64,000 bases of DNA. It comes from Flavobacteriaceae bacterium. Lineage in GTDB: Bacteria > Bacteroidota > Bacteroidia > Flavobacteriales > Flavobacteriaceae. Where the stretch lies: assembly GCA_030830005.1 (NCBI GenBank), contig JAURNV010000024.1, positions 1-64,000 on the forward strand. The letters are read 5' to 3'. The notes below the pieces were generated by a model that saw nothing but the letters and a program-made list of their open reading frames with translations, was not told where the DNA came from and searched no databases. Of the stretch, positions 1-15,507 are shown in pieces. Within the stretch, counting starts at the first letter, position 1. Each line of letters starts with the position of its first letter. Both the position numbers and the translations under genes were made by a program.

Positions 1-17
1 AACTGAGCTACTCTCGC
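1..17 (-). tRNA. Partial tRNA 5' end (probably tRNA-Gly), truncated by window edge
   Basis: Reverse complement begins GCGAGAGTAGCTCAGTT, a typical tRNA acceptor/D-arm start; anticodon lies outside the window, so identity is a guess. Confidence 0.65.
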
Positions 18-101
18 GTTGTACCGAAAAGAGGTATTTTCGGTGTTGGTACTTCATCACAAATATAAAAAACTTTTGGTTTTATGCTTGAGAATTAGAG
101 T

Positions 102-183
102 GGGGAGAGCAGGATTCGAACCTGCGAAGGTAAAAACCAACAGATTTACAGTCTGTCCTCGTTGGCCGCTTGAGTATCTCCCC
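102..183 (-). tRNA. tRNA-Tyr (anticodon GTA)
   Basis: Acceptor stem ggggaga/tctcccc, T-arm gattcgaac, anticodon stem-loop CAGACTGTAAATCTG, long variable arm. Confidence 0.93.
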
Positions 184-225
184 TATTACAAAGAACAACA
201 CCCCACAAAGGGGTGAAAATTAAAG

Positions 226-299
226 AGCCGATGGAGGGACTCGAACCCACGACCTGCTGATTACAAATCAGCTGCTCTAGCCAGCTGAGCTACATCGGC
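226..299 (-). tRNA. tRNA-Thr (anticodon TGT)
   Basis: Acceptor gccgatg/catcggc, T-arm, anticodon stem-loop GCTGATTTGTAATCAGC. Confidence 0.93.
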
Positions 300-360
300 G
301 AATGCTCCCATTTAGAAGCGGTTGCAAATGTAATAATTAATTTATTTGGCTTCAAAAAAA

Positions 361-675
361 TTAAACCCCATTTTGAAAAGATCTTAAATGTTTCTCTTTA
401 CTTCGTATAAGTAAGCGTTCTACCGCTCTAGATGCTGCGTCAAAAGCTTCCTCGAATGTGCCACTTTCTTTTTTAACCATGAGTGTATCGCCTGGAATTT
501 TAACTTTTATTTCTACCTGCGTCGTGCGTTTTTGCGCTGATTTTTCTAGCTTCATGTACAAATCTGTAGACAAAATCTTGCCGTAATAGTGTTGGTACTT
601 ATCAATGCGCTTGGCAATGAATTTCTTAAGACTAGATTTTAATGAAAAGTTAAGGGCTTGAATTGTGATTCGCAT
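361..675 (-). CDS. hpf: Ribosome hibernation promoting factor, short HPF/RaiA family
   Basis: 104-aa ORF with HPF fold-type sequence; next to the tRNA cluster. Confidence 0.88.
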   Translation of the reverse strand: MRITIQALNFSLKSSLKKFIAKRIDKYQHYYGKILSTDLYMKLEKSAQKRTTQVEIKVKIPGDTLMVKKESGTFEEAFDAASRAVERLLIRSKEKHLRSFQNGV

Positions 676-719
676 AATTATAAATTAAAATTTAAACTGG
701 GCGAACTTGGCGCGAATAC

Positions 720-1610
720 TTACTTTTTTGCTCTAGGGTGTGCAGCGCGGTAGGCGTCTTGCACTTTTGGAAGCTGAACTTTAGTGTATTCTTGAGTAGC
801 GGCCAAGCTTTCATGGCCAAGTATTTCCTTAACCACGTTGATGTCAGCACCTGCATCCAACATGTGAGTAGCAAAGCTATGGCGTAGCACATGTGGAGAA
901 GTGCGTATCTTACTTGATACTGCTCTAAAATACGTTTTTATTAGGCGATATACAAAATTAGGGTAGGTTTTTTTACCCTTATCAGTAACCAACAGAAAGT
1001 TATGCTTAGAGGCTCCATCAATTGCATTCCGCTGTTCGCAATAGGACTCTAATTCATGTATAAAAGAGGGTAAAATTGGAATAATTCGCTCTTTATTCCT
1101 TTTTCCCAACACTCTGAGTTGTTGTTGCATCCAATCCACATCAGTAAGCTTGAGGTTAATCAATTCAGACTGGCGCATACCAGTGGTATACATTAGTTCT
1201 ATGGCCACTGCATCTCGAATTCCTGGAAACGTACTTTTATCTATCGCCAAAAGCACATTTTCAACCTCTTCAATACTAAAAGGAAGAATAAATGTTTTTT
1301 TTGCTTTAATGGTCTTATGCTGTGCTAAAGGATGGCTCTGCATTAAGCCAATAGTTTGCATGTATTTATAAAATGAGTTTAGCGTTGCACATTTTCTATT
1401 GATACTGCGCATAGAAATGCCTTGTTGAGATAGTGAAATTACAAAATCTCTAACCATACCGTAGTGCACTTTACATAAGTCTTGCAATTGGTACGTGTCA
1501 CTGCAGTGCACCGTAAAATCCTGAATATCTTTACGATATGCAATAATTGTGAGTGCAGAATAGTTTTTCTCAGCCGCTAAATAACGAAGAAAAGCATCAA
1601 CATTGTCCAT
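720..1610 (-). CDS. xerC: Tyrosine recombinase XerC/XerD family
   Basis: Catalytic motifs TGMRQSEL, HVLRHSFATHMLDAGAD, LGHESLAATQEY. Confidence 0.9.
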   Translation of the reverse strand: MDNVDAFLRYLAAEKNYSALTIIAYRKDIQDFTVHCSDTYQLQDLCKVHYGMVRDFVISLSQQGISMRSINRKCATLNSFYKYMQTIGLMQSHPLAQHKTIKAKKTFILPFSIEEVENVLLAIDKSTFPGIRDAVAIELMYTTGMRQSELINLKLTDVDWMQQQLRVLGKRNKERIIPILPSFIHELESYCEQRNAIDGASKHNFLLVTDKGKKTYPNFVYRLIKTYFRAVSSKIRTSPHVLRHSFATHMLDAGADINVVKEILGHESLAATQEYTKVQLPKVQDAYRAAHPRAKK

Positions 1611-1634
1611 ACAGACAAGGTATGAAAAGAAAAA

Positions 1635-1829
1635 TTAATTTTCTTCTTTATCGCGAAGGTGCTGAATATAGGAAGCTTTTTGGATTTGTGCCCGCCGAGA
1701 AACCGAAGGTTTTGTGAACGTTTGACGTTCACGAAGCTGACGCATGGCCCCTGTTTTATCAAATTTACGCTTAAAACGCTTCAGCGCTCTATCGATATTT
1801 TCACCGTCTTTAATTGGAATAATTAACAT
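1635..1829 (-). CDS. rpsU: 30S ribosomal protein S21
   Basis: 64-aa MLIIPIKDGENIDRALKRFKRKFDKTGAMRQLRERQ. Confidence 0.95.
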   Translation of the reverse strand: MLIIPIKDGENIDRALKRFKRKFDKTGAMRQLRERQTFTKPSVSRRAQIQKASYIQHLRDKEEN

Positions 1830-1896
1830 GAACCTTACCTCCTCTCTTTAAAATTAAGGTTGCAAATATAGCGGTTATTTCTAATAACCCACAAGG

Positions 1897-3060
1897 CTAT
1901 TTTAAAATTTGATTAGCAATTACCACTTTTTGTATTTCGGATGTTCCTTCGCCGATGGTACAAAGTTTTGCGTCGCGGTAAAATTTCTCTACTGGAAATT
2001 CTTTAGAATACCCATAACCTCCAAAAATTTGAACCGCTTCGTTAGATGCTCGCACACAAGTTTCCGATGCAAACAATTTAGACATCGCACTAATTTTTGT
2101 CATTCTGCGGCCGGAATTTTTCTCGTAACAGGCTTTGTGCATCAGCAATTCCGATGCTTCTATATCTGTTGCCATTTGTGCCAATTTAAAAGATATCCCT
2201 TGAAAAGAATTAATAGGTTTACCAAATTGAACTCGTTCTGAAGAGTATTTTAATGCAGCTTCATAAGCTCCACGGGCAATACCTAAAGATAGTGCTGCAA
2301 TAGAAATGCGACCACCATCCAAAATTTTCATTGATTGTATAAAGCCATCGCCGATATCTCCTAACCTATTTTCGTCAGGAATTCGGCATTGATCAAACAC
2401 CAATTCTGCGGTTTCTGAGGCACGCATGCCAAGCTTATTTTCTTTCTTTCCTGCATAAAACCCAGGTGTTCCACGCTCAACGACAAACGCAGTCATGCCA
2501 TGACTATCTCCTTTTTCACCAGTACGCACTATTACAACAGCAATATTTCCGCTGCTCCCGTGAGTAATGAAATTTTTAGTCCCATTGATTATCCACTCAT
2601 TGCCTTCACGTACCGCAGTAGAGTTCATCCCGCCTGCATCGGATCCCGTATTGTGTTCAGTAAGCCCCCACGCGCCTATCCACTGCCCTGAAGCAAGTTT
2701 AGGCAACCAACGTTGTTTTTGTTCTTCTGAACCAAATTGTAAAATGTGGTTTGTACACAGTGAATTGTGCGCTGCAATAGACAATCCGATGGATGGGTCA
2801 ACTTTTGAAATTTCTTCAATAATGGCGGTATATTCAAAATAACCTAATCCAGCACCACCATATACTTCGGGAACGAGAACTCCCATAAAACCCATAGCCC
2901 CAGCTTGATGCAAAACTTCCTTTGGGAAAAACTGGCGTTCATCCCAATCCATAACATGAGGAGCAATGTACTGCTTAGCAAATTCGCGGGCAGATGCCGC
3001 TACCATTTCATGGGTTTCCCCTAACTCAAAAATAGGACCAGATTGAAGTTCAGTTCTCAT
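1897..3060 (-). CDS. Acyl-CoA dehydrogenase
   Basis: Motifs GAWGLTEHNTGSDAGG, FGGYGYSKEFPVEKFYRDAK, IGEGTSEIQ. Confidence 0.95.
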   Translation of the reverse strand: MRTELQSGPIFELGETHEMVAASAREFAKQYIAPHVMDWDERQFFPKEVLHQAGAMGFMGVLVPEVYGGAGLGYFEYTAIIEEISKVDPSIGLSIAAHNSLCTNHILQFGSEEQKQRWLPKLASGQWIGAWGLTEHNTGSDAGGMNSTAVREGNEWIINGTKNFITHGSSGNIAVVIVRTGEKGDSHGMTAFVVERGTPGFYAGKKENKLGMRASETAELVFDQCRIPDENRLGDIGDGFIQSMKILDGGRISIAALSLGIARGAYEAALKYSSERVQFGKPINSFQGISFKLAQMATDIEASELLMHKACYEKNSGRRMTKISAMSKLFASETCVRASNEAVQIFGGYGYSKEFPVEKFYRDAKLCTIGEGTSEIQKVVIANQILK

Positions 3061-3061
3061 A

Positions 3062-3832
3062 CTAATTAAAGGACAAATATAATGATAATCTTGCTTTTTT
3101 AACGGAATCCAATTGATGAATAACAGATAGGTCTTCCCACGAATTCAAGTTTTCCTTCTGTGTTCTCACTGCAACAATTTTACTAGCCAATGCATTATTT
3201 ACATAATGCAAACCAGAAAGTTGACTAAGTGTTAACTCATTGATATTCTTTTTTTGAATAAAAGGAATAGAGTCTAGCTTGAAGTGCACCCAAATCCGCT
3301 GTTGGATTTCGGGCGTAAGCCCCCAAACATCAGCCAACTGATCTTTTACTAAAAATCCGCCTAATTTATTTCGTAATTCAAGAATGCGTTGTGCGTAAAC
3401 CTTGCCAATACCACTTACTAGCTGCAAATCAGTAGTCGTAGCAGTATTAAGCTCTTTTTTAACAACCTTTTCTTTGCTGTAATTTGCAGCAGGGAATTGA
3501 GACTTGGGTAACTTTAAGTAAGGACGTATTCGTCTAATTTCACTTTCCGATAATTTAGAGACTTGCCTAAAAACCTGTAGTGAATTTATGTAATTTCCTG
3601 TTGCCCTAAATGCGCGAATACGATTGACCGCTTCAATGGGAATATCTAATTGATAGGCTTTAAAATCAGAAATGTAGTTTGGATTAAAAGGAAATATGGT
3701 GTCTTTACTTTCAACATAATTTATTGCCATGAGTGAATCAGCTTTTCGCTGTAAAATGCTGTCAAGCAATAATGTTGAAGGAGCTTTATGAGGCGCCATG
3801 GGAACAAACAACATTCCCAAATGCAACACCAA
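3062..3832 (-). CDS. Helix-hairpin-helix (ComEA-like) protein; N-terminus probably frame-disrupted (see findings)
   Basis: HHH motifs LNTATTTDLQLVSGIGKVYAQRILELR; called start is a TTG just downstream of an A8 run. Confidence 0.75.
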   Translation of the reverse strand: MVLHLGMLFVPMAPHKAPSTLLLDSILQRKADSLMAINYVESKDTIFPFNPNYISDFKAYQLDIPIEAVNRIRAFRATGNYINSLQVFRQVSKLSESEIRRIRPYLKLPKSQFPAANYSKEKVVKKELNTATTTDLQLVSGIGKVYAQRILELRNKLGGFLVKDQLADVWGLTPEIQQRIWVHFKLDSIPFIQKKNINELTLSQLSGLHYVNNALASKIVAVRTQKENLNSWEDLSVIHQLDSVKKARLSLYLSFN

Positions 3833-3916
3833 AAAAAATAGCTAGTGTCCAAATAACACCTCTACGTTGAGACTTGGTTAGGCTAAGATTTGATGGGGAT
3901 GAATTCAAAACATTTG

Positions 3917-5514
3917 CTACGTTTTTACTTTAATCGCTGTTAAATATCTTGTCAATTCTTCTTTAACTCTTGGGAACAAGAAAAATAACCCTATCATGTT
4001 TGGAAATACTAGGGCTAAAATCATCGCATCCGAAAATGTCCATACAGCAGACATATCTCCAGCAGCGCCAATGACAATAAAAATTAAAAACAGAACCTTA
4101 TAGGTTAAATCAGACCACTTGTTTTTACCAAAAATAAACATCCATGATTGAAGACCATAATAGGACCATGAAATCATGGTAGATATGGCAAATAACACCA
4201 CGGCAATGGTTAAAAAAGGTCCTGAGAAAGAAATATATTTAGCAAAGGCAGCAGCTGTAATTCCTGCTCCTTCTACCGCTTCGCCGTCTATCAAAACTAC
4301 TCCGTTTTCACCCCCGTAAGCAAATACTGAGTTGTCTCCATTAAAAATAATGATTACTAAGGCAGTCATGGTACAAATAACAACAGTATCTATAAAGGGC
4401 TCAAGTAAAGCGACTAACCCTTCAGAAGCGGCGTATTTGGTTTTTACTGCCGAATGTGCGATTGATGCTGAACCTGCGCCTGCTTCATTAGAAAATGCAG
4501 CACGCCGAAATCCTGTAATAAGGACACCTAATAATCCTCCCAAACCTGCTTGAGGACTAAATGCTTGGTAAAAAATCTGACCAAAAGCATTATCAACATA
4601 ATCATAGTTTAATAGAATTATGTACAAACATGCGCCTATGTAAAGAACAGCCATAAGAGGAACAATTTTTTCAGTAACTGATGCAATTCGTTTAATACCA
4701 CCAATAATGATTATTCCTACGAAAATCATCATGATGATTCCAATAATTGTACGTGCGCTTCCTCCAGTCATTCCAAATGAATCTACAAGTTGCATAGCAG
4801 CTTGGTTAGACTGAGCAGCGTTGCCACCTCCAAAAGAAGCGCCAACACATAGAAGTGCGAAAGTCACAGCTAAGAATTTTCCAAAACGAGCAAATCCCCG
4901 TTCTTTCAATCCTTTTGATAAATAATACATTGGACCGCCGTAGACCGTGCCATCTTCACCAACATCACGGTATTTTACCCCAAGCGTGCATTCCACAAAT
5001 TTTGTAGACATCCCAATAAGACCACATAAAATCATCCAAAAAGTAGCCCCAGGACCACCTACAGCAATGGCTAAGGCTACTCCCGCAATATTACCATTTC
5101 CAACCGTACCCGATACAGCGGTAGCCAAGGCCTGAAAATGGCTTACCTCACCGTCTTTACTTTCATCTTTTATGGTATCTACTACATCCCCTTTAGCCAC
5201 ATGTACAGAGGGTTTTTCTACAACCCCGTGGCGATCAATTTCGTCATGTTTACCACGTACAACCCCAATGGCTAATGGAAATTTTCGGATATTAATAAAA
5301 CCGAAATAAAGCGTAAAAAACATAGCCCCCCCTACCAATAAAATTATAATTGTAGGAACATCGGTGCCTGGGAAATTATGAAGAATTACATTTCCCCACC
5401 AGTCTGCTATGGGTGTAAAAGCTTCATTAATTCTATCGTCAATTCCTTTTTCTTGGGTTTGTGCTACTAGTGGTAGGCAAAAAAAAGTAAACAGGAATAT
5501 TGTAAAATTTTTCA
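3917..5514 (-). CDS. Sodium:alanine symporter family (AGCS) transporter
   Basis: Multi-TM; GNGNIAGVALAIAVGGPGATFWM and SNEAGAGSASIAHSA motifs; signal-like N-terminus MKNFTIFLFTFFCLPLVAQ. Confidence 0.92.
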
Positions 5515-5525
5515 TAAAAAATAGA

Positions 5526-5753
5526 TTATAAATCAAAAACTGATGAGCGTTTGGAAAACAGAAAATCTTTCATCTTAAGCCAAAATGCGAGTACCAAATA
5601 TAGGGCAAAGCCTCCCCCCAACGAAAAAAAACTGAGATAGATAAAGAAAATACGAACGTTTTTAGCCTTCATACCTAGCCGTTCGGCAAGTCTGGAGCAA
5701 ACTTCAAATCCTCTTTTTTCAAAAAAATAACGCGTTTCGTGTAGTAAACTCAT
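5526..5753 (-). CDS. PspC-domain small membrane protein
   Basis: 75 aa, CSRLAERLGMKAKNVRIFFIYLSFFSLGGGFALYLVLAFWLK. Confidence 0.75.
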   Translation of the reverse strand: MSLLHETRYFFEKRGFEVCSRLAERLGMKAKNVRIFFIYLSFFSLGGGFALYLVLAFWLKMKDFLFSKRSSVFDL

Positions 5754-5767
5754 TTAGGCAAATGTAA

Positions 5768-7036
5768 TCAAAGATTTAAAAGTGTATGTCCGAAGCTGCA
5801 CTGTAAACAACGCCTAGAATCACAATAATTATGTTTTAATTGAAGGCACGCCTGACTTTCTAGCGCATCGTCAATTGGGCATCCCAAGTTATTAAAATTA
5901 GACGTATAAACGTTTTTTTCTGCTGGGAGTTGGTGCATCCAATCCAATACCAAGTCTTTCCGCTTATCTCCTTTGTAACTGTAATAATGAAATAAAAATG
6001 GAAACACGGTATTGATCAACAACAACTGGTTGAAAGATTTGCTTGTACGATTTATACGTTTATTTGATGGGGTTCTAAAATGATAATGTTTCTCCCAAAA
6101 AGGAGAGGTTTTTGAAATGAATAGTTCGTCAAAGTCTTTGATTGACTTGATCTTGTGCACAAGGGATAATAAGCGTGGTCTTTTATGTAATAGCCATGCC
6201 AATTGTGCCAATCGAATAGTAGGAAAATTCGAAGGCCGTAAGCGGAAGAATTGTACCCTTTCTGAAATGGGAGATAACGCGTGTTTATTTCTTAAATAGG
6301 TGTATATTTTAGCCTGCTTACAGAAATAATTATTCTCGATAGGAAGCTCAAACAAACCCACTTGCCCCATAAACAAAGCTTCTAAATTTTCTAAATTTTC
6401 TGCACTTTTAAGTACAACCTTCCAAGGAATGGAAAGCATCATTTTAGAAAAGGCTATTCCGTTATAATTCAAACCAAAGCCCTTTGCAAGTGAAATTAAA
6501 AAAACTGCCTCCCAATTATTTTTTGAAAGTGCTAACCAACTTTGAATCAAGGTTGTTTTCTCTTGAAGTCGCTCAACATATAGGCGTTCCCAAAATTGTT
6601 TTCTAACAAATTCTGGAAGTCGATGGAGCTCATCTTCACAAAGTGTCCATTTACTCGACTGTGAGTTCCATTTGGTATATTTTTCGATTATATCTTCAGG
6701 TGCATACTCGGCTAAACACAAGGTGGGCATAGGCTGTTGACTTGTGTCTGCAATAGGCACATCGTCTTGCCAAACCACATGCAGCACCACATTATCATAG
6801 GCATTATCAAGATGATGATTATGATTAAACCAATCCGAAGAGCGAATATGGAGCTCAACATTACCAACCCATAGGGTGTTGTTTAATTGAATGTGCGCAT
6901 TGAAAAAATCAGGGCCTTCATATTGGTTTTCCTGACCCGGCTTAACAACAAAAAGAGTATCTCCCGACGTAGTTTTTAGTTGACTACTTCGAAACTTTTG
7001 TGTCTTCCACAAATAGGCGAGCAGTTCTTCGCGCAA
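5768..7036 (-). CDS. DUF2851 family protein
   Basis: EGPDFFNAHIQLNNTLWVGNVELHIRSSDWFNHNHHLD signature region. Confidence 0.8.
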   Translation of the reverse strand: MREELLAYLWKTQKFRSSQLKTTSGDTLFVVKPGQENQYEGPDFFNAHIQLNNTLWVGNVELHIRSSDWFNHNHHLDNAYDNVVLHVVWQDDVPIADTSQQPMPTLCLAEYAPEDIIEKYTKWNSQSSKWTLCEDELHRLPEFVRKQFWERLYVERLQEKTTLIQSWLALSKNNWEAVFLISLAKGFGLNYNGIAFSKMMLSIPWKVVLKSAENLENLEALFMGQVGLFELPIENNYFCKQAKIYTYLRNKHALSPISERVQFFRLRPSNFPTIRLAQLAWLLHKRPRLLSLVHKIKSIKDFDELFISKTSPFWEKHYHFRTPSNKRINRTSKSFNQLLLINTVFPFLFHYYSYKGDKRKDLVLDWMHQLPAEKNVYTSNFNNLGCPIDDALESQACLQLKHNYCDSRRCLQCSFGHTLLNL

Positions 7037-7050
7037 CAGTCATAAGGGTA

Positions 7051-7431
7051 TTACTCCTCCAAATCGCCCTCCCAAGAAAGGACACCACCTTCAAGATTAT
7101 AAACAGTTTCAAAACCCATTTGCTCCATTAGCTGACACGCTTGTCCGCTGCGAGCACCCGAACGACAATACACAAAATACGCCTTAGACTTGTCCAATTT
7201 CTCAATAGAGGAAATAAAATCTGCACCTCCACGGATATCTAAGTTTACTGCATTTTTAATATATCCACTTTCAAATTCTTCTTCTGTTCGAACATCGAGG
7301 ATTACAGCTCCTGAAGTTTGGCTATATAGTTCAGCCCACTCAGTAGGAAGTAGTTCGTTCATAATTGTCTGTTTTTTGGGCGAAGATACACACGATATAA
7401 AAATCAAACTAACGAAAAATAAAATGCGCAT
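7051..7431 (-). CDS. Rhodanese-like domain protein (secreted/lipoprotein-like N-terminus)
   Basis: Active-site loop YCRSGARSGQA; ILDVRTEEEFESGYI. Confidence 0.88.
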   Translation of the reverse strand: MRILFFVSLIFISCVSSPKKQTIMNELLPTEWAELYSQTSGAVILDVRTEEEFESGYIKNAVNLDIRGGADFISSIEKLDKSKAYFVYCRSGARSGQACQLMEQMGFETVYNLEGGVLSWEGDLEE

Positions 7432-7458
7432 TTTCTTTTTTCAAATATAAAAATAAAT

Positions 7459-7466
7459 TATATTTG
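7459..7466 (+). promoter_or_regulatory. Bacteroidota-type -7 element TATATTTG upstream of marR-family gene
   Basis: Matches TAnnTTTG about 24 bp upstream of the start codon. Confidence 0.55.
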
Positions 7467-7490
7467 TACCTACAATAGTTGTTATAACAA
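7464..7490. promoter_or_regulatory. Tandem palindromes TTGTA-CC-TACAA (7464-7475) and TTGTTATAACAA (7479-7490), candidate MarR operator
   Basis: Exact inverted symmetry read directly; overlap the -7 element and the start codon. Confidence 0.55.
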
Positions 7491-7915
7491 TGGTTAATAG
7501 AAACGTAATTGTTGAATTAATGCGCACAGGTAATTTGTTTAGCGATATGATAAATACCGCGTTACAAACTCGTGGGTTAACTATACAACAGTTTAACGTG
7601 TTGCGAATTTTACGAGGCCGAAACGGGTTGGCTGCTTGTCTAGAAAGCGTTACCAACGATATGATACACCGCATGAGTAACACGTCGCGTATTGTAGACA
7701 AGCTGACTGAAAAAGGATATGTAATTAGAGAAGTTTGTAAGGAAAATCGTCGTAAAATAGATCTTTTTATTACATCCAAAGGGCTTGCTATCATTGAGGA
7801 AGTAGACCCGTTATTAATTAAAAAGGAACAAGAACTAACAAAAACATTATCAACTAAAGAATTGGAACAATTATTGCAATTACTAACAAAATTAAAATCG
7901 AAACATAAACATTAA
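7490..7915 (+). CDS. MarR family transcriptional regulator
   Basis: 141 aa winged-helix MarR pattern: LRGRNGLAACLESVTNDMIHRMSNTSRIVDKLTEKGYVIREVCKENRRKIDLFIT. Confidence 0.88.
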   Translation: MVNRNVIVELMRTGNLFSDMINTALQTRGLTIQQFNVLRILRGRNGLAACLESVTNDMIHRMSNTSRIVDKLTEKGYVIREVCKENRRKIDLFITSKGLAIIEEVDPLLIKKEQELTKTLSTKELEQLLQLLTKLKSKHKH

Positions 7916-7925
7916 ATATACACAC

Positions 7926-8483
7926 ATGAAAAAGAAAACACTCTTCGCCCTAATGGCAATAACATTTTTAGCTGCTGGGTTACATGCACAAACCACTGAA
8001 ATTTCTAATGGCACTATTTCCTGGAAAGGATCTAAAATAACAACAGATTCACACGTGGGCACCTTAACTATCAGTAAAGGCTCATTAAATTTTGACGGCG
8101 ATACACTAGTAGGTGGCTCGTTTATTGTTGACATGAACAGTATTGTTTGCACTGACTTAACAGGCAAAAAATCAGATCGATTAGTTGGTCATTTGAAATC
8201 TGATGATTTTTTTGCTGTTGAAAAGCATCCCGAAGCAACGCTAAACATTACTACTGCTGAAAAAACAGAAAACGGCTACAACGTCGTTGGAGATTTTACC
8301 ATTCGTGGCATTACTCATTCGGAATCCTTCACACTAAATTTAGAAGGCAAAAAAGGCACTGCTGACTTGGAAATTGACCGCTCGAAGTACAATGTGAAAT
8401 ACGCTTCAGGCTCGTTTTTCGAAAACCTAGGAGATAAACTCATAAACAACGAATTGGAGCTAAGCGTTAGCTTTAGTTTTTAA
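7926..8483 (+). CDS. YceI family protein (secreted)
   Basis: Signal peptide + SKITTDSHVGTLTISKGSLNFDGDTLVGGSFIVDMNSI. Confidence 0.88.
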   Translation: MKKKTLFALMAITFLAAGLHAQTTEISNGTISWKGSKITTDSHVGTLTISKGSLNFDGDTLVGGSFIVDMNSIVCTDLTGKKSDRLVGHLKSDDFFAVEKHPEATLNITTAEKTENGYNVVGDFTIRGITHSESFTLNLEGKKGTADLEIDRSKYNVKYASGSFFENLGDKLINNELELSVSFSF

Positions 8484-8487
8484 TTGC

Positions 8488-8517
8488 TTGTTTTTTCAAT
8501 CTCGAATTGTATATTTG
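8488..8517 (+). promoter_or_regulatory. trp promoter: -33 TTG (8488-8490), 19-nt spacer, -7 TATATTTG (8510-8517)
   Basis: Matches Bacteroidota TTG/TAnnTTTG architecture; lies just before the leader peptide. Confidence 0.7.
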
Positions 8518-8522
8518 GCCAG

Positions 8523-8564
8523 ATGAAAAAAATCTTAACTAAAGCGCTTTGGTGGAACTCCTAA
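8523..8564 (+). CDS. trpL: trp operon leader peptide MKKILTKALWWNS
   Basis: 13-codon ORF with tandem Trp codons (8550-8555), followed by alternative hairpins and an intrinsic terminator before trpE. Confidence 0.8.
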   Translation: MKKILTKALWWNS

Positions 8565-8595
8565 TAGGGGGTCGATAGGCGTTTTAGAAACACAC

Positions 8596-8628
8596 AAAAG
8601 GCTTGTCGTATTTGGCAAGCCTTTTTTT
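8596..8628 (+). terminator. trp attenuator terminator hairpin
   Basis: AAAAGGCTTG - TCGTATTTGG - CAAGCCTTTT, 10-bp perfect stem running into a T7 tract, immediately upstream of trpE. Confidence 0.85.
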
Positions 8629-8639
8629 ATTTTTGACAC

Positions 8640-10043
8640 ATGAAATTTGTACTTAAAACAGCTACAAAAGAATTGCTTACCGACACCATGACTCCGGTGA
8701 ATATGTACCTCAAAATCAGGGATGCATTCCCTGAGAGTGTGCTTTTGGAAAGTTCTGATTATGGCGCAAACGACAACAGTGTTGCTTATTTGTGCTTTAA
8801 CCCCATCGCCTCGTTTAAAGTGCACAATGGTTTGATGACACAAACTTTTCCAGATGGCAGTGTTTTGGAACAGCAAATTAAAGAGGATATTTCTGTGGTA
8901 AAATCATTAGAAGATTTTATATCATGCTTCGAAACCGATTTTACCGATACACGTTTTCTAAGTAACGGTCTCTTTGGCTACACCTCATATGAAGCAGTGC
9001 AGTATTTTGAAGAAATAACCTTTTCCAAAAAGAAAAACAGTACAGATATTCCAGAAATTTATTATGCCCTTTACCAAAATATTATTGCGGTAAATGTATT
9101 TAACAATCAAGCCAAACTTTTTGCGCATTGTTTCCAAACAGAAAGTAATCTTGAGGAGATAATAAAATTATTAAATGCACCAGCTCGAGATTCGTTTTCC
9201 TTTACTAAAGAAGGTAACCCTACCTCAAACATGAACGACAAAGAATTTGTGGAATTAGTTAAAAAAGGCATTAACCATTGTATGCGCGGTGATGTATTTC
9301 AGATTGTACTTTCACGCCGTTTTTCGCAAGCTTTTAGGGGTGATGATTTCAGCCTATATCGTGTATTGCGATCCATTAACCCATCCCCATATATCTTTTA
9401 TTTTGATTTAGGAAATTATAAGATTTTTGGCAGTTCACCCGAAGCGCAACTTGTTGTTCAAGATGGAGTAGCAGAGATTCACCCTATTGCAGGAACCTTT
9501 ATCCGTACTGGAAATGACGCTAAAGACGAAGCCAAAGCAAAGGAGCTCGCAGAAGATCTCAAAGAAAATGCCGAGCATATGATGTTAGTTGATTTAGCCC
9601 GCAACGATTTAAGTCGACATGGACACAATGTAACAGTAGAAAAAGACCGAGAAGTGCAGTTCTACTCTCATGTAATTCATTTGGTCTCTAAAGTTACTGG
9701 ACAAAAAAAAGTGGATACGCCTACCATGCAAGTAGTTGCCGACACCTTCCCCGCAGGAACACTAAGTGGTGCTCCTAAACATCGCGCCATGCAACTCATT
9801 GATGATTATGAAAATATCGATCGTGCATTTTATGGTGGTGCCATCGGTTTTATTGACTTTAAAGGAAATTACAATCACGCCATTATTATCCGTTCGTTTT
9901 TAAGCAAAAACAATACACTTCACTATCATGCAGGGGCTGGAGTGGTTTCCAAATCAAAGCCCGAAAGTGAGTTGCAAGAAGTGTACAATAAATTACGGGC
10001 CTTAAATACTGCTATGGATAAAGCAGAAAAACAGTTTTCATGA
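8640..10043 (+). CDS. trpE: Anthranilate synthase component I
   Basis: Chorismate-binding motifs FQIVLSRRF, GSSPEAQL, HPIAGTFIRTG, FPAGTLSGAPKHRAM. Confidence 0.95.
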   Translation: MKFVLKTATKELLTDTMTPVNMYLKIRDAFPESVLLESSDYGANDNSVAYLCFNPIASFKVHNGLMTQTFPDGSVLEQQIKEDISVVKSLEDFISCFETDFTDTRFLSNGLFGYTSYEAVQYFEEITFSKKKNSTDIPEIYYALYQNIIAVNVFNNQAKLFAHCFQTESNLEEIIKLLNAPARDSFSFTKEGNPTSNMNDKEFVELVKKGINHCMRGDVFQIVLSRRFSQAFRGDDFSLYRVLRSINPSPYIFYFDLGNYKIFGSSPEAQLVVQDGVAEIHPIAGTFIRTGNDAKDEAKAKELAEDLKENAEHMMLVDLARNDLSRHGHNVTVEKDREVQFYSHVIHLVSKVTGQKKVDTPTMQVVADTFPAGTLSGAPKHRAMQLIDDYENIDRAFYGGAIGFIDFKGNYNHAIIIRSFLSKNNTLHYHAGAGVVSKSKPESELQEVYNKLRALNTAMDKAEKQFS

Positions 10044-10600
10044 ATATACTAGTTATAGATAATTACGATTCATTTACCTTTAATTTGGTACATTATTTAG
10101 AGGAGCTAGACTGTAAAGTTACTGTAAAGCGCAACGACCAATTCGAGTTAGAAGAAATTGCTAGCTTCGATAAAATTGTACTTTCGCCTGGACCGGGCAT
10201 CCCTAGCGAAGCAGGACTTTTAAAAGCGGTTATTAAAAAATATGCTAAAAACATTCCCATGCTTGGCGTTTGCTTAGGGCATCAAGCAATAGCGGAAGTT
10301 TTTGGGGGGTCACTAACCAATTTATCTTCCGTCTTTCATGGCGTAGCAAGTTCCATGGAAGTAGTAAAAGAAGACCCTCTTTTCGCAAATTTACCAAAGC
10401 ATTTTGATGTAGGAAGATATCATTCTTGGGTGGTTAACAAACCTCTTCCTCAAGGGCTTATTTTACTTGCCGAAGAAGAAAACGGACAAGTAATGGCTTT
10501 TAAACACGAAGTATATCCAGTTTATGGGGTTCAGTTTCATCCTGAATCGGTGCTTACCCCACATGGAAAACAATTGCTAAAAAATTGGGTTGTACTATGA
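10040..10600 (+). CDS. trpG: Anthranilate synthase component II (glutamine amidotransferase)
   Basis: LSPGPGIPSEAG, LGVCLGHQAIAE, VQFHPESVLT. Confidence 0.95.
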   Translation: MNILVIDNYDSFTFNLVHYLEELDCKVTVKRNDQFELEEIASFDKIVLSPGPGIPSEAGLLKAVIKKYAKNIPMLGVCLGHQAIAEVFGGSLTNLSSVFHGVASSMEVVKEDPLFANLPKHFDVGRYHSWVVNKPLPQGLILLAEEENGQVMAFKHEVYPVYGVQFHPESVLTPHGKQLLKNWVVL

Positions 10601-11589
10601 AAGAGCTACTAACACGACTTACCCAACACGAAAAACTTTCTCGTCAAGAGGCAAAAGAGGCTTTGCTCTTTATTGGCCGTGGCGAAGGAAATCACTATCA
10701 GGTCACGACTTTTCTGAGCATCTATATGATGCGAAACATTTCTGTGTCCGAATTGGCTGGTTTTCGCGATGCGCTTATCGAACTTTGTATTGCTGTTGAT
10801 TTATCTGCCTATAACCCCATAGATTTATGTGGAACTGGCGGAGACAGCAAAGACACCTTCAACATCTCAACCTTATCTTCGTTTGTAACAGCAGGGGCAG
10901 GAATTCCCGTGGCTAAGCATGGAAATTACGGGGTTTCTTCTTCATGCGGCTCAAGTAATGTAATGGAATATTTGGGTGTTAAATTTTCAAACGACTCAGC
11001 CTTTTTAGAACGTTGTATTGATCAAGCGGGAATTTGCGTGCTCCATGCGCCTCTTTTCCATCCCGCTATGAAACACGTTGCTCCAATTCGGCGTGCATTG
11101 CAATTAAAAACGTTTTTTAATATGCTCGGTCCTTTGGTAAACCCATGTTCGCCAAAGCGTCAAATGGTAGGTGTTTTTAATTTAGCGTTATTACGTTTAT
11201 ATGCCCTATTATTTCAAGAAACAGAAACACAATATTGCATCGTACATGCTTTAGACGGGTATGATGAAATTTCACTTACTTCTGGAACGAAAGCAATTTC
11301 AAACAAGGGCGAAACCATAATTTACCCTTCAACTTTTGGACTCACTGCGTTATCTCCATCAGCCATTGGTGGAGGTCATAGTATAGAAGCTGCTGCTATT
11401 TTTACTAATGTTCTTAATAACGAAGCTACAACTGCTCAAAAACAAGTCGTTTGCGCAAACGCTGGAACAGCAATTGCTACTGCATTAGATATTTCACTTG
11501 CAGAAGGCTATGCAAAAGCACAAGAATCCATTGAATCAAAAAAAGCATTGGCTGCATTTAAAAAACTTTTAGAACTAAGTAAGGCATGA
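10597..11589 (+). CDS. trpD: Anthranilate phosphoribosyltransferase
   Basis: DLCGTGGDSKDTFNIST, KHGNYGVSSSCGSSNVME; ATGA overlap with trpG stop. Confidence 0.95.
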   Translation: MKELLTRLTQHEKLSRQEAKEALLFIGRGEGNHYQVTTFLSIYMMRNISVSELAGFRDALIELCIAVDLSAYNPIDLCGTGGDSKDTFNISTLSSFVTAGAGIPVAKHGNYGVSSSCGSSNVMEYLGVKFSNDSAFLERCIDQAGICVLHAPLFHPAMKHVAPIRRALQLKTFFNMLGPLVNPCSPKRQMVGVFNLALLRLYALLFQETETQYCIVHALDGYDEISLTSGTKAISNKGETIIYPSTFGLTALSPSAIGGGHSIEAAAIFTNVLNNEATTAQKQVVCANAGTAIATALDISLAEGYAKAQESIESKKALAAFKKLLELSKA

Positions 11590-12371
11590 GTATTTTAGAG
11601 CAAATAGTTAACGACCAACGCAAAGAGATTATATTAAAGAAGCAGGTGGTTTCAGAAGCTAGCTTAACAAAGATGCCCTTGTATACTAGGCAATCATTAT
11701 CATTTTCGAAAGCCATAAAACATACCCCCTTGGGTATTGTTGCCGAACATAAAAGACGATCGCCTTCCAAGCCACAAATAAAACTACAATCTAGAGTAGC
11801 CGAAGTAGCCTTAGGTTATGAAAAAGCAGGTGTTGCTGCAATGTCCGTGCTAACAAACAATCAATATTTTGGAGGTTCTATCGAAGATTTACTACTTGCA
11901 AGAAGCGCTTGTAATCTGCCGCTATTACGCAAAGAATTTATCATTGACTCCTATCAAATTCACGAAGCAAAAGCCTATGGTGCTGATGCTATTTTGCTCA
12001 TTGCTGCCTGTTTACAACCCAATGAAATTCAGGGTCTTTCAAAAATAGCTAATAGTATTGGGCTAGAAGTTTTATTAGAAGTTCATAATAAAGTAGAGCT
12101 TGACAAAACTCCTTTAGATTTTGTACAAGTAGTTGGTGTAAATAACCGTAATCTTAAGGATTTTTCGGTGTCCTTAGATACTAGTCTTTCGTTAGCAAAA
12201 CATATTCCTTCGGATAAAATCAAAATCTCAGAGAGCGGAATTTCCTCAACCGAGTCGATAAAATCACTTTTGGAAGCAGGTTTTGACGGTTTTTTAATGG
12301 GTGAATATTTTATGCTTAATGATTCTCCAAGTCAAAAAGCACAGCAATTCATTAAATCATTTACCCTATGA
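11586..12371 (+). CDS. trpC: Indole-3-glycerol phosphate synthase
   Basis: VAEHKRRSPSK, LLRKEFIIDSYQIHEAKAYGADAILLI. Confidence 0.95.
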   Translation: MSILEQIVNDQRKEIILKKQVVSEASLTKMPLYTRQSLSFSKAIKHTPLGIVAEHKRRSPSKPQIKLQSRVAEVALGYEKAGVAAMSVLTNNQYFGGSIEDLLLARSACNLPLLRKEFIIDSYQIHEAKAYGADAILLIAACLQPNEIQGLSKIANSIGLEVLLEVHNKVELDKTPLDFVQVVGVNNRNLKDFSVSLDTSLSLAKHIPSDKIKISESGISSTESIKSLLEAGFDGFLMGEYFMLNDSPSQKAQQFIKSFTL

Positions 12372-12976
12372 AATGGAAAGTCTGTGGTATGCGCGATGCT
12401 AAAAATATAGCCGATGTGGCAACTCTACATCCTGATTATATGGGATTTATTATGTGGGAGGGTTCTAAACGCTATTGTCCAATACCCCCCGAAGTCCCAG
12501 AGTATATTATCAAGGTGGGGGTTTTTGTAGATGCAAGTTTAGAGAATATTGAAAATGCTATTGAGGATTTCAAATTAGGCGCAGTTCAACTCCATGGCAG
12601 TGAAACCCCTAGTCTTTGTAGAGCATTGCAGGGCAAAACACAAGTTATAAAGGCTTTTAGTATTGGTAAAACCTTTGATTTTGATTCACTTGTAGATTAC
12701 CTTCCATACTGTGATTTCTTCTTGTTCGACACCAAAGGACCTCTGCCAGGAGGAAATGGAAGTAGTTTTGACTGGACGCTTTTAAACGATTATCCATTTG
12801 ATTTACCGTTTTTTCTAAGTGGAGGGATAGGGTTAGCAGAAACAGAAAAGATTAACGAAATTCGCAAGACGGATTTACCAGTATATGCCCTTGATGTAAA
12901 TAGTACGTTTGAAGTTGAGCCTGGCTTAAAAAACGCCAAGCTTTTAAAAGTTTTTAAAGAAAAAATAATGCTATGA
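12368..12976 (+). CDS. trpF: Phosphoribosylanthranilate isomerase
   Basis: KVCGMRDAKNIADV, VQLHG, FLSGGI. Confidence 0.93.
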   Translation: MKWKVCGMRDAKNIADVATLHPDYMGFIMWEGSKRYCPIPPEVPEYIIKVGVFVDASLENIENAIEDFKLGAVQLHGSETPSLCRALQGKTQVIKAFSIGKTFDFDSLVDYLPYCDFFLFDTKGPLPGGNGSSFDWTLLNDYPFDLPFFLSGGIGLAETEKINEIRKTDLPVYALDVNSTFEVEPGLKNAKLLKVFKEKIML

Positions 12977-14157
12977 GTAGTTATCATGTAAACGAAAAAG
13001 GTTTTTACGGAGATTTCGGAGGAGCCTATATCCCTGAAATGCTTTATCCAAACGTAGAAGAACTTCGTCAGAACTACTTGGAAATTACCGCACAAGATGA
13101 CTTTAAAAAGGAATTCGACCAACTCTTAAAAGACTATGTGGGTCGTCCCACACCGCTCTACTTTGCCTCGCGTCTATCCGAAAAATACAACACCAAAATC
13201 TACCTAAAACGTGAGGATTTGTGTCACACAGGAGCACATAAAATCAACAATACCATTGGGCAAATTCTTCTTGCAAAACGACTTGGTAAAAATCGTATTA
13301 TTGCCGAAACAGGTGCTGGTCAACACGGCGTTGCTACTGCCACAGTATGTGCCCTAATGGGTATCCAATGTGTGGTTTATATGGGCGAATTGGACATAAA
13401 GCGCCAATCACCAAATGTGGCGCGCATGAAAATGTTAGGCGCAGAAGTACGTTCTGCATTATCTGGAAGCAAAACTTTAAAAGATGCAACCAATGAAGCG
13501 ATACGCGATTGGATCAACAATCCTGTGGACACGCATTACATCATCGGCTCAGTGGTGGGACCACACCCTTACCCAGACATGGTGGCACGTTTTCAAGCTG
13601 TGATTAGTGAAGAATGCAAGGTACAACTCATGGAAACTGAAGGCCGTGACTATCCTGACCATGTCATTGCATGTGTTGGTGGTGGAAGCAACGCCGCAGG
13701 AATTTATTATCATTACTTAGATGACCCAAGAGTAAATATTATTGCCGTAGAAGCTGCTGGGAAAGGAATTGATTCGGGTGAAAGTGCCGCAACATCTGCT
13801 TTGGGAAAAGAAGGCATTATTCATGGAAGCAAGACCTTGCTTATGCAAACCCCAGATGGACAAATCACGGAACCTTATTCGATTTCTGCAGGATTAGACT
13901 ACCCTGGTGTGGGACCCATGCACGCACATTTGTACCGCAGCCAGCGTGCTGAATTTGTCTCTGTACCCGACCAAGAAGCTATGGACTGGGGGCTTATGCT
14001 TTCGCAAATGGAAGGTATTATTCCTGCCATTGAGACCTCGCATGCTTTTGCAGTCTTAGATGCACGAAAATTCGAACCAAATGATGTGTTACTTTTTAAT
14101 TGTTCTGGGCGAGGAGACAAAGACCTTCAAACCTATATTGACTATTTTAAATTATAA
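12973..14157 (+). CDS. trpB: Tryptophan synthase beta chain
   Basis: KREDLCHTGAHKINN, ACVGGGSNAAGIY. Confidence 0.97.
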   Translation: MSSYHVNEKGFYGDFGGAYIPEMLYPNVEELRQNYLEITAQDDFKKEFDQLLKDYVGRPTPLYFASRLSEKYNTKIYLKREDLCHTGAHKINNTIGQILLAKRLGKNRIIAETGAGQHGVATATVCALMGIQCVVYMGELDIKRQSPNVARMKMLGAEVRSALSGSKTLKDATNEAIRDWINNPVDTHYIIGSVVGPHPYPDMVARFQAVISEECKVQLMETEGRDYPDHVIACVGGGSNAAGIYYHYLDDPRVNIIAVEAAGKGIDSGESAATSALGKEGIIHGSKTLLMQTPDGQITEPYSISAGLDYPGVGPMHAHLYRSQRAEFVSVPDQEAMDWGLMLSQMEGIIPAIETSHAFAVLDARKFEPNDVLLFNCSGRGDKDLQTYIDYFKL

Positions 14158-14258
14158 AGAAATTTGTACTTTAGCATAGAACATAGCCCCAAGCTTATTC
14201 CACACCCTCATACATCATTTTTTGTGCGAATATGAGAAGGCTTTTAAATACACAAATC

Positions 14259-14669
14259 ATGAACGAGTTCAAAAAATTCATCAATAAAGGTAATGTTATT
14301 GAAATGGCTGTAGGTTTAATTATGGCGACCTATTTTGGTGCTATTGTTAAATCTTTAGTCAATGATATTATAATGCCACCCGTGGGAATGTTGCTTGGAG
14401 GAGTGGACTTTTCAGCACTCAAAGTAGTTATTCAGTCTCAAAATGAAAGTGAAGGAATTACAGAAGTAGCCATTTATTACGGTTCATTTATAAACACCAT
14501 TATTACGTTTTTACTTGTTGCTTTTGCCATTTTTTTGGTGGTAAAATTCTATAACCGCGTAAAAGAAAAACTTGAAAAAAAGGAAGCCGAAGCTCCCACA
14601 CCGCCAACAGCTCCCTCCAACGAAGAGGTTTTGCTCACCGAAATTAGAGACTTGCTCAAAAAGAAATAA
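14259..14669 (+). CDS. mscL: Large-conductance mechanosensitive channel MscL
   Basis: MNEFKKFINKGNVIEMAVGLIMATYFGAIVKSLVNDIIMPPVGMLLGGVDFS; alternative upstream start at 14232. Confidence 0.92.
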   Translation: MNEFKKFINKGNVIEMAVGLIMATYFGAIVKSLVNDIIMPPVGMLLGGVDFSALKVVIQSQNESEGITEVAIYYGSFINTIITFLLVAFAIFLVVKFYNRVKEKLEKKEAEAPTPPTAPSNEEVLLTEIRDLLKKK

Positions 14670-14745
14670 ATCTGTACTATCTTTTTGTTGCCTTTACCTA
14701 TTGAAAAGAGTATTTTTACACTTTAAATAAAACGTGAACAGTTTT

Positions 14746-15507
14746 ATGAATCGCATTCAATCCGTACTCGAGCAAGACCGAAAGTTACTTTCTGTTTATT
14801 TTACAGCTGGATTTCCTAATCTAAACGATACGGTATCTATCCTTACCCAACTGCAAGATGCAGGGGTGGATATGATTGAGCTAGGGCTTCCATTCTCAGA
14901 TCCTTTGGCTGATGGACCTACCATTCAGGAGAGTTCAACAAAAGCACTAAAAAACGGTATGAGCACCGATAAACTTTTTGAGCAGCTTAAAGACGTCAGA
15001 AAAAACATACATATACCGCTAATTGTAATGGGTTATTTTAATCCCATGATGCAATACGGAGTGGAACGCTTTTGCCAAAAATGCCAAGAGGTCGGAATTG
15101 ATGGACTTATTATCCCTGACCTTCCCGTAGATGAATATCACAATAATTATCAAGAATTGTTTAAAAAATATGGACTATTAAACATGTTTTTGATTACCCC
15201 ACAAACATCTGATGAGCGTATCCGATTCATAGACAGTGTTTCTGAGGGATTTATTTATATGGTAAGTAGCGCTGCTACTACTGGAGCTCAAAGCAGTTTT
15301 GGTGAAAAACAAACAGCATATTTCAAACGAATTGGCGCCATGAACCTTAATGCAAAACTTTTAGTTGGATTTGGCATCAGCAATGCTGAAACCTATCATG
15401 CTGCCACCAAATACAGCAAAGGGGCGATCATCGGCTCGGCCTTTATTAAGCACTTAGAAAAAACAGGAGCAGATAATGCATCAGCTTTTGTGACACAAAT
15501 TAGATAA
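14746..15507 (+). CDS. trpA: Tryptophan synthase alpha chain
   Basis: MIELGLPFSDPLADGPTIQ; alternative GTG start at 14734. Confidence 0.95.
   Translation: MNRIQSVLEQDRKLLSVYFTAGFPNLNDTVSILTQLQDAGVDMIELGLPFSDPLADGPTIQESSTKALKNGMSTDKLFEQLKDVRKNIHIPLIVMGYFNPMMQYGVERFCQKCQEVGIDGLIIPDLPVDEYHNNYQELFKKYGLLNMFLITPQTSDERIRFIDSVSEGFIYMVSSAATTGAQSSFGEKQTAYFKRIGAMNLNAKLLVGFGISNAETYHAATKYSKGAIIGSAFIKHLEKTGADNASAFVTQIR

Follow-up and report, generated by a model that had tools for sequence, protein, structure and literature searches.

A putative ribosome-mediated trp attenuator with a predicted leaderless leader peptide in Flavobacteriaceae

The trp attenuator of Escherichia coli, the Trp_leader type, combines a leader open reading frame (ORF) carrying tandem Trp codons with three alternative helices and an intrinsic terminator. 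To our knowledge, Bacteroidota operate without Shine-Dalgarno signals. A motif described in that phylum, Bacteroid-trp (RF01692), occupies the same site upstream of trp genes as the leader described below and likewise contains an ORF with tandem Trp codons, usually three where the present leader has two (Weinberg et al. 2010, PMC2864571). Leaderless attenuator peptides are reported in other phyla: peTrpL/trpL of Sinorhizobium meliloti (PMC7298713) and TrpL1 of Streptomyces lividans (PMC8079986), both with the transcription start at the leader AUG, and the ilvB leader of Corynebacterium diphtheriae (PMC5784534). In Flavobacterium psychrophilum, which belongs to the same family as the locus studied here, transcriptome data point to leader-peptide attenuation upstream of amino-acid operons, and the portion of that report drawn on here does not describe leaderless leader peptides (PMC9723704). 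A literature search of incomplete coverage found no report of leaderless attenuator peptides for Bacteroidota. Leaderless or near-leaderless mRNAs are a minority in three species of the phylum: 5' UTRs shorter than 10 nt make up 3.7% in Bacteroides thetaiotaomicron (PMC7366714), leaderless mRNAs 5.5% in F. psychrophilum according to the same portion of its report (PMC9723704), and leaders of at most 10 nt 13% in Flavobacterium johnsoniae, the other 87% being longer than 10 nt (PMC6847099).

In the 64,000-nt stretch of Flavobacteriaceae DNA analysed here (the window), direct reading of positions 8484–8640 places a leader flanked by a complete Bacteroidota promoter and a terminator, 5' of a trpEGDCFB operon on the forward strand, which also carries all features of the leader. 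The first structural gene is trpE (8640–10043; Pfam PF00425 and PF04715), after which trpG, trpD, trpC, trpF and trpB follow in overlapping order (10040–14157; assigned from Pfam and ORFs). An mscL gene on the same strand (14232–14669; Pfam MscL, 146 bits) splits the operon between trpB and trpA (14734–15507; PF00290). The 13-codon ORF with tandem Trp codons that an earlier sequence-only reading had pointed out is borne out by the sequence: it encodes MKKILTKALWWNS and runs over 8523–8564, from the ATG at 8523 to a TAA at 8562–8564. This ATG is the sole start kept by all relatives, while upstream in-frame starts vary, and the TGG TGG pair (8550–8555), the predicted stall site, is invariant in the leader alignment (A1). 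A scan of the window with Rfam at gathering score returned tRNAs alone, with no T-box or other known cis-regulator. The analysis shows the sequence, promoter elements and conservation of the leader and, in silico, its alternative helices.

With the -7 consensus TAHHTTTG (PMC6847099), a -7 box reading TATATTTG was placed at 8510–8517, and each of the 18 clade leaders fits TATATTTG or TATCTTTG. Many transcription starts of F. johnsoniae lie 4–5 nt 3' of the -7 element (PMC6847099), and the part of the F. psychrophilum report used here places the box at -12 to -5 (PMC9723704). By this published flavobacterial spacing, the start at our locus is predicted at 8522 or 8523, which would put the AUG at +2 or +1; in E. 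coli, by contrast, trpL has a Shine-Dalgarno leader. A start at 8522 or 8523 also lets the TTG at 8488–8490 fall at the -33 element, a CTTG (8487–8490) centred near -33 for a start at 8522, and CTTGTTTTTT is conserved at this element in the genus. The distance between box and ATG is 5 nt in 18 of 18 clade leaders despite 14 different spacers. That the leader ATG lies within a few nucleotides of the likely start, as the sequence-only reading had proposed, is well supported as a prediction by the -33/-7 promoter and the invariant 5-nt spacing in the genus, and a prediction it remains. The same reading had regarded the leaderless geometry as the less expected part of the locus; it is not specific to the species, and similar peptides are known in other phyla.

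The genome does not bear out the idea of TATATTTG-N5-ATG as a rare arrangement: the pattern TATATTTGN{3,8}ATG occurs at 11 genome sites versus 8 for the reversed pattern, and several of the sites precede ordinary genes. A box 4–11 nt 5' of the start is found for 5 of 59 window genes and 19 of 394 genes in related loci, control counts that take in trpE starts with a box in the T tract. Taken by itself, the geometry is not unusual in the genome; its significance rests on conservation. In an MreB-like and a DapF-like gene (L233 and L240, at G000:C4 and G000:C26), a TATATTTG box precedes the ATG by 5 and 3 nt, respectively, so that ordinary genes of this genome may also have leaderless mRNAs. On the minus strand at L236 (G000:C19:10049-10063), a 20-codon ORF, MTVNLVSRFTFSPRARRPLG, begins 4 nt after a TATATTTG box and 5' of a longer ORF; it may be a further small ORF of the leaderless kind.

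The RNA from 8518 to 8640 has a minimum free energy of -40.3 kcal/mol, compared with -24.2 ± 3.4 kcal/mol for 200 dinucleotide shuffles (z -4.8), none of which was as stable. Strand 1 (8539–8549), recognised by folding and compensatory changes, lies just 5' of the Trp codons, unlike its counterpart in the E. coli trp attenuator, and pairs with 8577–8587 in an 11-bp helix that encloses a small inner hairpin, CUCCU/AGGGG (8558–8571), holding part of the stop codon. Strand 2 (8573–8587) can instead pair with strand 3 (8596–8608), the 5' arm of the terminator, in a 12-bp antiterminator composed of 8573–8580 with 8601–8608, a G.G mismatch, and 8582–8585 with 8596–8599. The terminator joins strand 3 to 8613–8625 over 13 bp and is followed by a T7 tract (8622–8628) 11 nt 5' of trpE, strand 4 and the tract together spanning 8613–8628 and strand 4 pairing in 98% of cells in the genus. 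The pairings drawn by eye in the sequence-only reading are real, but they were too short for the 1:2 and 3:4 helices, and its 2:3 pairing is the outer half of the antiterminator. The mutually exclusive 1:2, 2:3 and 3:4 helices together with an intrinsic terminator form the architecture of an attenuator in silico.

Co-transcriptional folding was modelled under constraint, with a ribosome on the Trp codons covering the RNA to 8564 or 8567 and RNA polymerase at 8608–8614. Under these settings the antiterminator is the best fold (-11.3 to -12.5 kcal/mol) and forms before the second arm of the terminator exists. In the full-length equilibrium fold the terminator wins every time, and antitermination would therefore be kinetic and depend on timing. 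Such dependence on timing is expected and is shared by other attenuators.

The clade set of 18 leaders (that of the window, those of 16 close relatives and that of L019, which is more distant) aligns without gaps 5' of the Trp codons. All 17 relatives retain the hairpins, the ORF with its Trp codons, and the box with its spacing. Covariation, a check suggested in the sequence-only reading, is seen for the 1:2 and 2:3 helices. In the 1:2 helix four pairs show two-sided changes and the covariation score lies above that of 500 of 500 shuffles; in the 2:3 helix 93% of cells are paired, one pair shows two-sided changes, and the score is reached by 4 of 500 shuffles. The 3:4 terminator is paired in 98% of cells with one-sided changes only, as would follow from a strand 3 constrained by two partners. 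These covariation counts provide modest support, since the clade sequences are close and the alignment shallow. In one marine metagenome-assembled genome, the leader 5' of trpE (L021) carries changes in its second Trp codon as well as in the -7 box, at the G, and looks as if it were decaying.

The leader shares several features with Bacteroid-trp. It sits directly upstream of trp genes, with trpE at 8640; it contains a short ORF in which the AUG and UGGUGG of the model are aligned; and it has a conserved stem around the Trp codons, as seen from the full-length alignment and the 1:2 pair counts. RF01692 aligns to the window end to end (1–131), with no non-standard pairs marked in the printed alignment, at 34.1 bits, below the gathering cut-off of 49 bits. 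The guess of the sequence-only reading that this is Bacteroid-trp was right by homology, but the score falls short of the family cut-off. The same holds for the genus, where sub-threshold matches occur in 16 of 17 genomes and matches above the cut-off in none of the 17. In a survey of one genome per genus, covering 151 genera of Flavobacteriaceae, RF01692 matches 130 and exceeds the cut-off in 96. Phylum-wide it is found in 20 of 198 genomes, and as 18 of these belong to the same family, the reach beyond the family is weak by this model. The window differs in its antiterminator, formed by CGAUAGGC/GCUUGUCG plus UUUU/AAAA, while other genera mostly use UCGUGA/UCACGA; in most genera UCGUGA lies in strand 2 and its partner UCACGA within the loop and 3' arm of the terminator, a pair that is absent from the window's clade. 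Furthermore, the match begins at 8503, about 20 nt 5' of the predicted transcript start, so that the first columns of RF01692 correspond to promoter DNA here. Judged by sequence comparison, the leader is homologous to Bacteroid-trp in place and plan and is a divergent form outside the curated family.

Across the family, two or three consecutive Trp codons are found in 127 genera, and in 109 of 124 genera the duplex of strand 2 with the terminator arm is better than 57 or more of 60 shuffles. The 3:4 terminator shows 25–31 two-sided changes per stretch of six core pairs. An Rfam-independent pattern, TATATTTGN{3,8}ATGN{3,33}TGGTGG, hits 55 of 151 genomes, mostly at sites of RF01692 matches. Among the 121 genera with a measurable leader, the spacing between box and ATG is bimodal: it is 4–6 nt in 31 genera (exactly 5 in 25) and 13–24 nt in 57, where the leaders are A-rich, and the rest have 7–12 nt (29 genera), 0 nt (one) or more than 24 nt (three). 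In one of the 31 short-spacing genera (L117) the true box probably lies further upstream. A TTG near the -33 distance accompanies the predicted leaderless form in 25 of these 31 genera. The bimodal spacing led us to reject the proposition that every Bacteroid-trp leader is leaderless, and the many genera at 13–24 nt indicate that the family can do without leaderless initiation. Mapped on a 66-row TrpE tree, short spacing requires 8 changes, of which at least 6 fall on well-supported branches, so that predicted leaderless and longer-leader forms have interchanged. Trp-codon leaders of Saprospiraceae and Epilithonimonas loci (L042, L044-L046, L048, L059) have no TAHHTTTG box near the ATG.

Ribosome-mediated attenuation, as envisaged in the sequence-only reading, is supported by Trp codons that are conserved, by helices that exclude one another and by the occurrence of relatives in about 130 genera. 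We consider it very probable that the locus is a ribosome-mediated trp attenuator whose leader peptide mRNA is leaderless or carries a 1-nt leader, where we infer the start, initiation, stalling and the response to Trp. The sigma-A promoter elements at 8487–8490 and 8510–8517 would direct RNA synthesis from 8522 or 8523, and a ribosome starting on the 5'-terminal AUG would make MKKILTKALWWNS. With ample Trp-tRNA, it would reach the stop codon, strand 2 would be covered, or sequestered by strand 1, and the 3:4 terminator would form 11 nt before trpE. If Trp-tRNA is scarce, the ribosome would wait at 8550–8555 and mask strand 1 and the inner hairpin, so that strand 2 could pair with strand 3 ahead of the synthesis of strand 4 and transcription would continue into trpE.

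The attenuator could be real and its leaderless start incidental, if longer transcripts, from yceI read-through or an upstream promoter, are the ones usually translated. The co-directional yceI does end at 8483, its stop codon 39 nt 5' of the leader ATG, and the A-rich leaders of the 57 genera at 13–24 nt would fit such transcripts, but the fixed spacing kept across 14 spacers with a matched -33 element, the recurrence of this geometry with a TTG near -33 in other genera and the lack of conserved upstream in-frame starts make this unlikely. Part of the transcription into trpE might also bypass the attenuator: TATTTTTG at 8628–8635 fits TAHHTTTG, lies 4 nt 5' of the trpE ATG and is shared by the window with six sister species, so that it could act as a second promoter for a leaderless trpE mRNA. 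The box is absent from the rest of the clade, however, and overlaps the T tract of the terminator, so it may be a chance occurrence in a T-rich stretch, and we regard such a promoter as rather improbable.

A terminator with incidental pairing, in a leader that has a short ORF but acts constitutively and does not switch with Trp, would account for the dominance of the terminator in each full-length fold and for the 3:4 helix lacking two-sided changes in the genus. It would hardly account for Trp codons, 1:2 and 2:3 helices that are kept across relatives while the peptide termini vary, and is highly improbable.

A similar layout precedes hisG. A His-run pattern gave four matches in 151 genomes, two of which are his leaders arranged in the same way before hisG (MKTIFVHHHH... 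and MQLKKLNHHH...). In the window's genus (L296, L295-L310) a His-rich leader, for example MKTTHTHHHVKSSFQTN, and a terminator precede hisG. Of 13 readable species, 12 have a conserved GATATTTG 7–8 nt 5' of the leader ATG, while the distance is 57 nt in the genome from which the window comes. Most his leaders escaped a search with the strict -7 box, since in the genus the box takes the form GATATTTG. The first base of GATATTTG does not fit the strict consensus, and a near-leaderless his leader in most species of the genus is therefore a lead.

The mechanism is a known one, in a divergent form of a known motif family, combined here with a conserved, predicted leaderless start. The S. meliloti and S. 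lividans peptides share with it the tandem Trp codons and the position upstream of trpE, but they belong to other phyla with other promoters, no sequence relation is claimed, and their starts are reported while that of the window is predicted. The comparison further suggests that some columns of the RF01692 model represent promoter DNA and that its cut-off excludes an entire clade. We see an even chance that much of the Flavobacteriaceae uses AUG-initiated leader mRNAs at amino-acid attenuators (trp, and his in the window's genus), that the spacing between -7 box and AUG is under selection with several switches between leaderless and short-leader forms, and that in the window's genus the antiterminator pairing has been rewired compared with the family. 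A conserved, apparently leaderless regulatory peptide would make a compact natural system for probing how Bacteroidota ribosomes initiate at a 5'-terminal AUG and at what speed they follow RNA polymerase.
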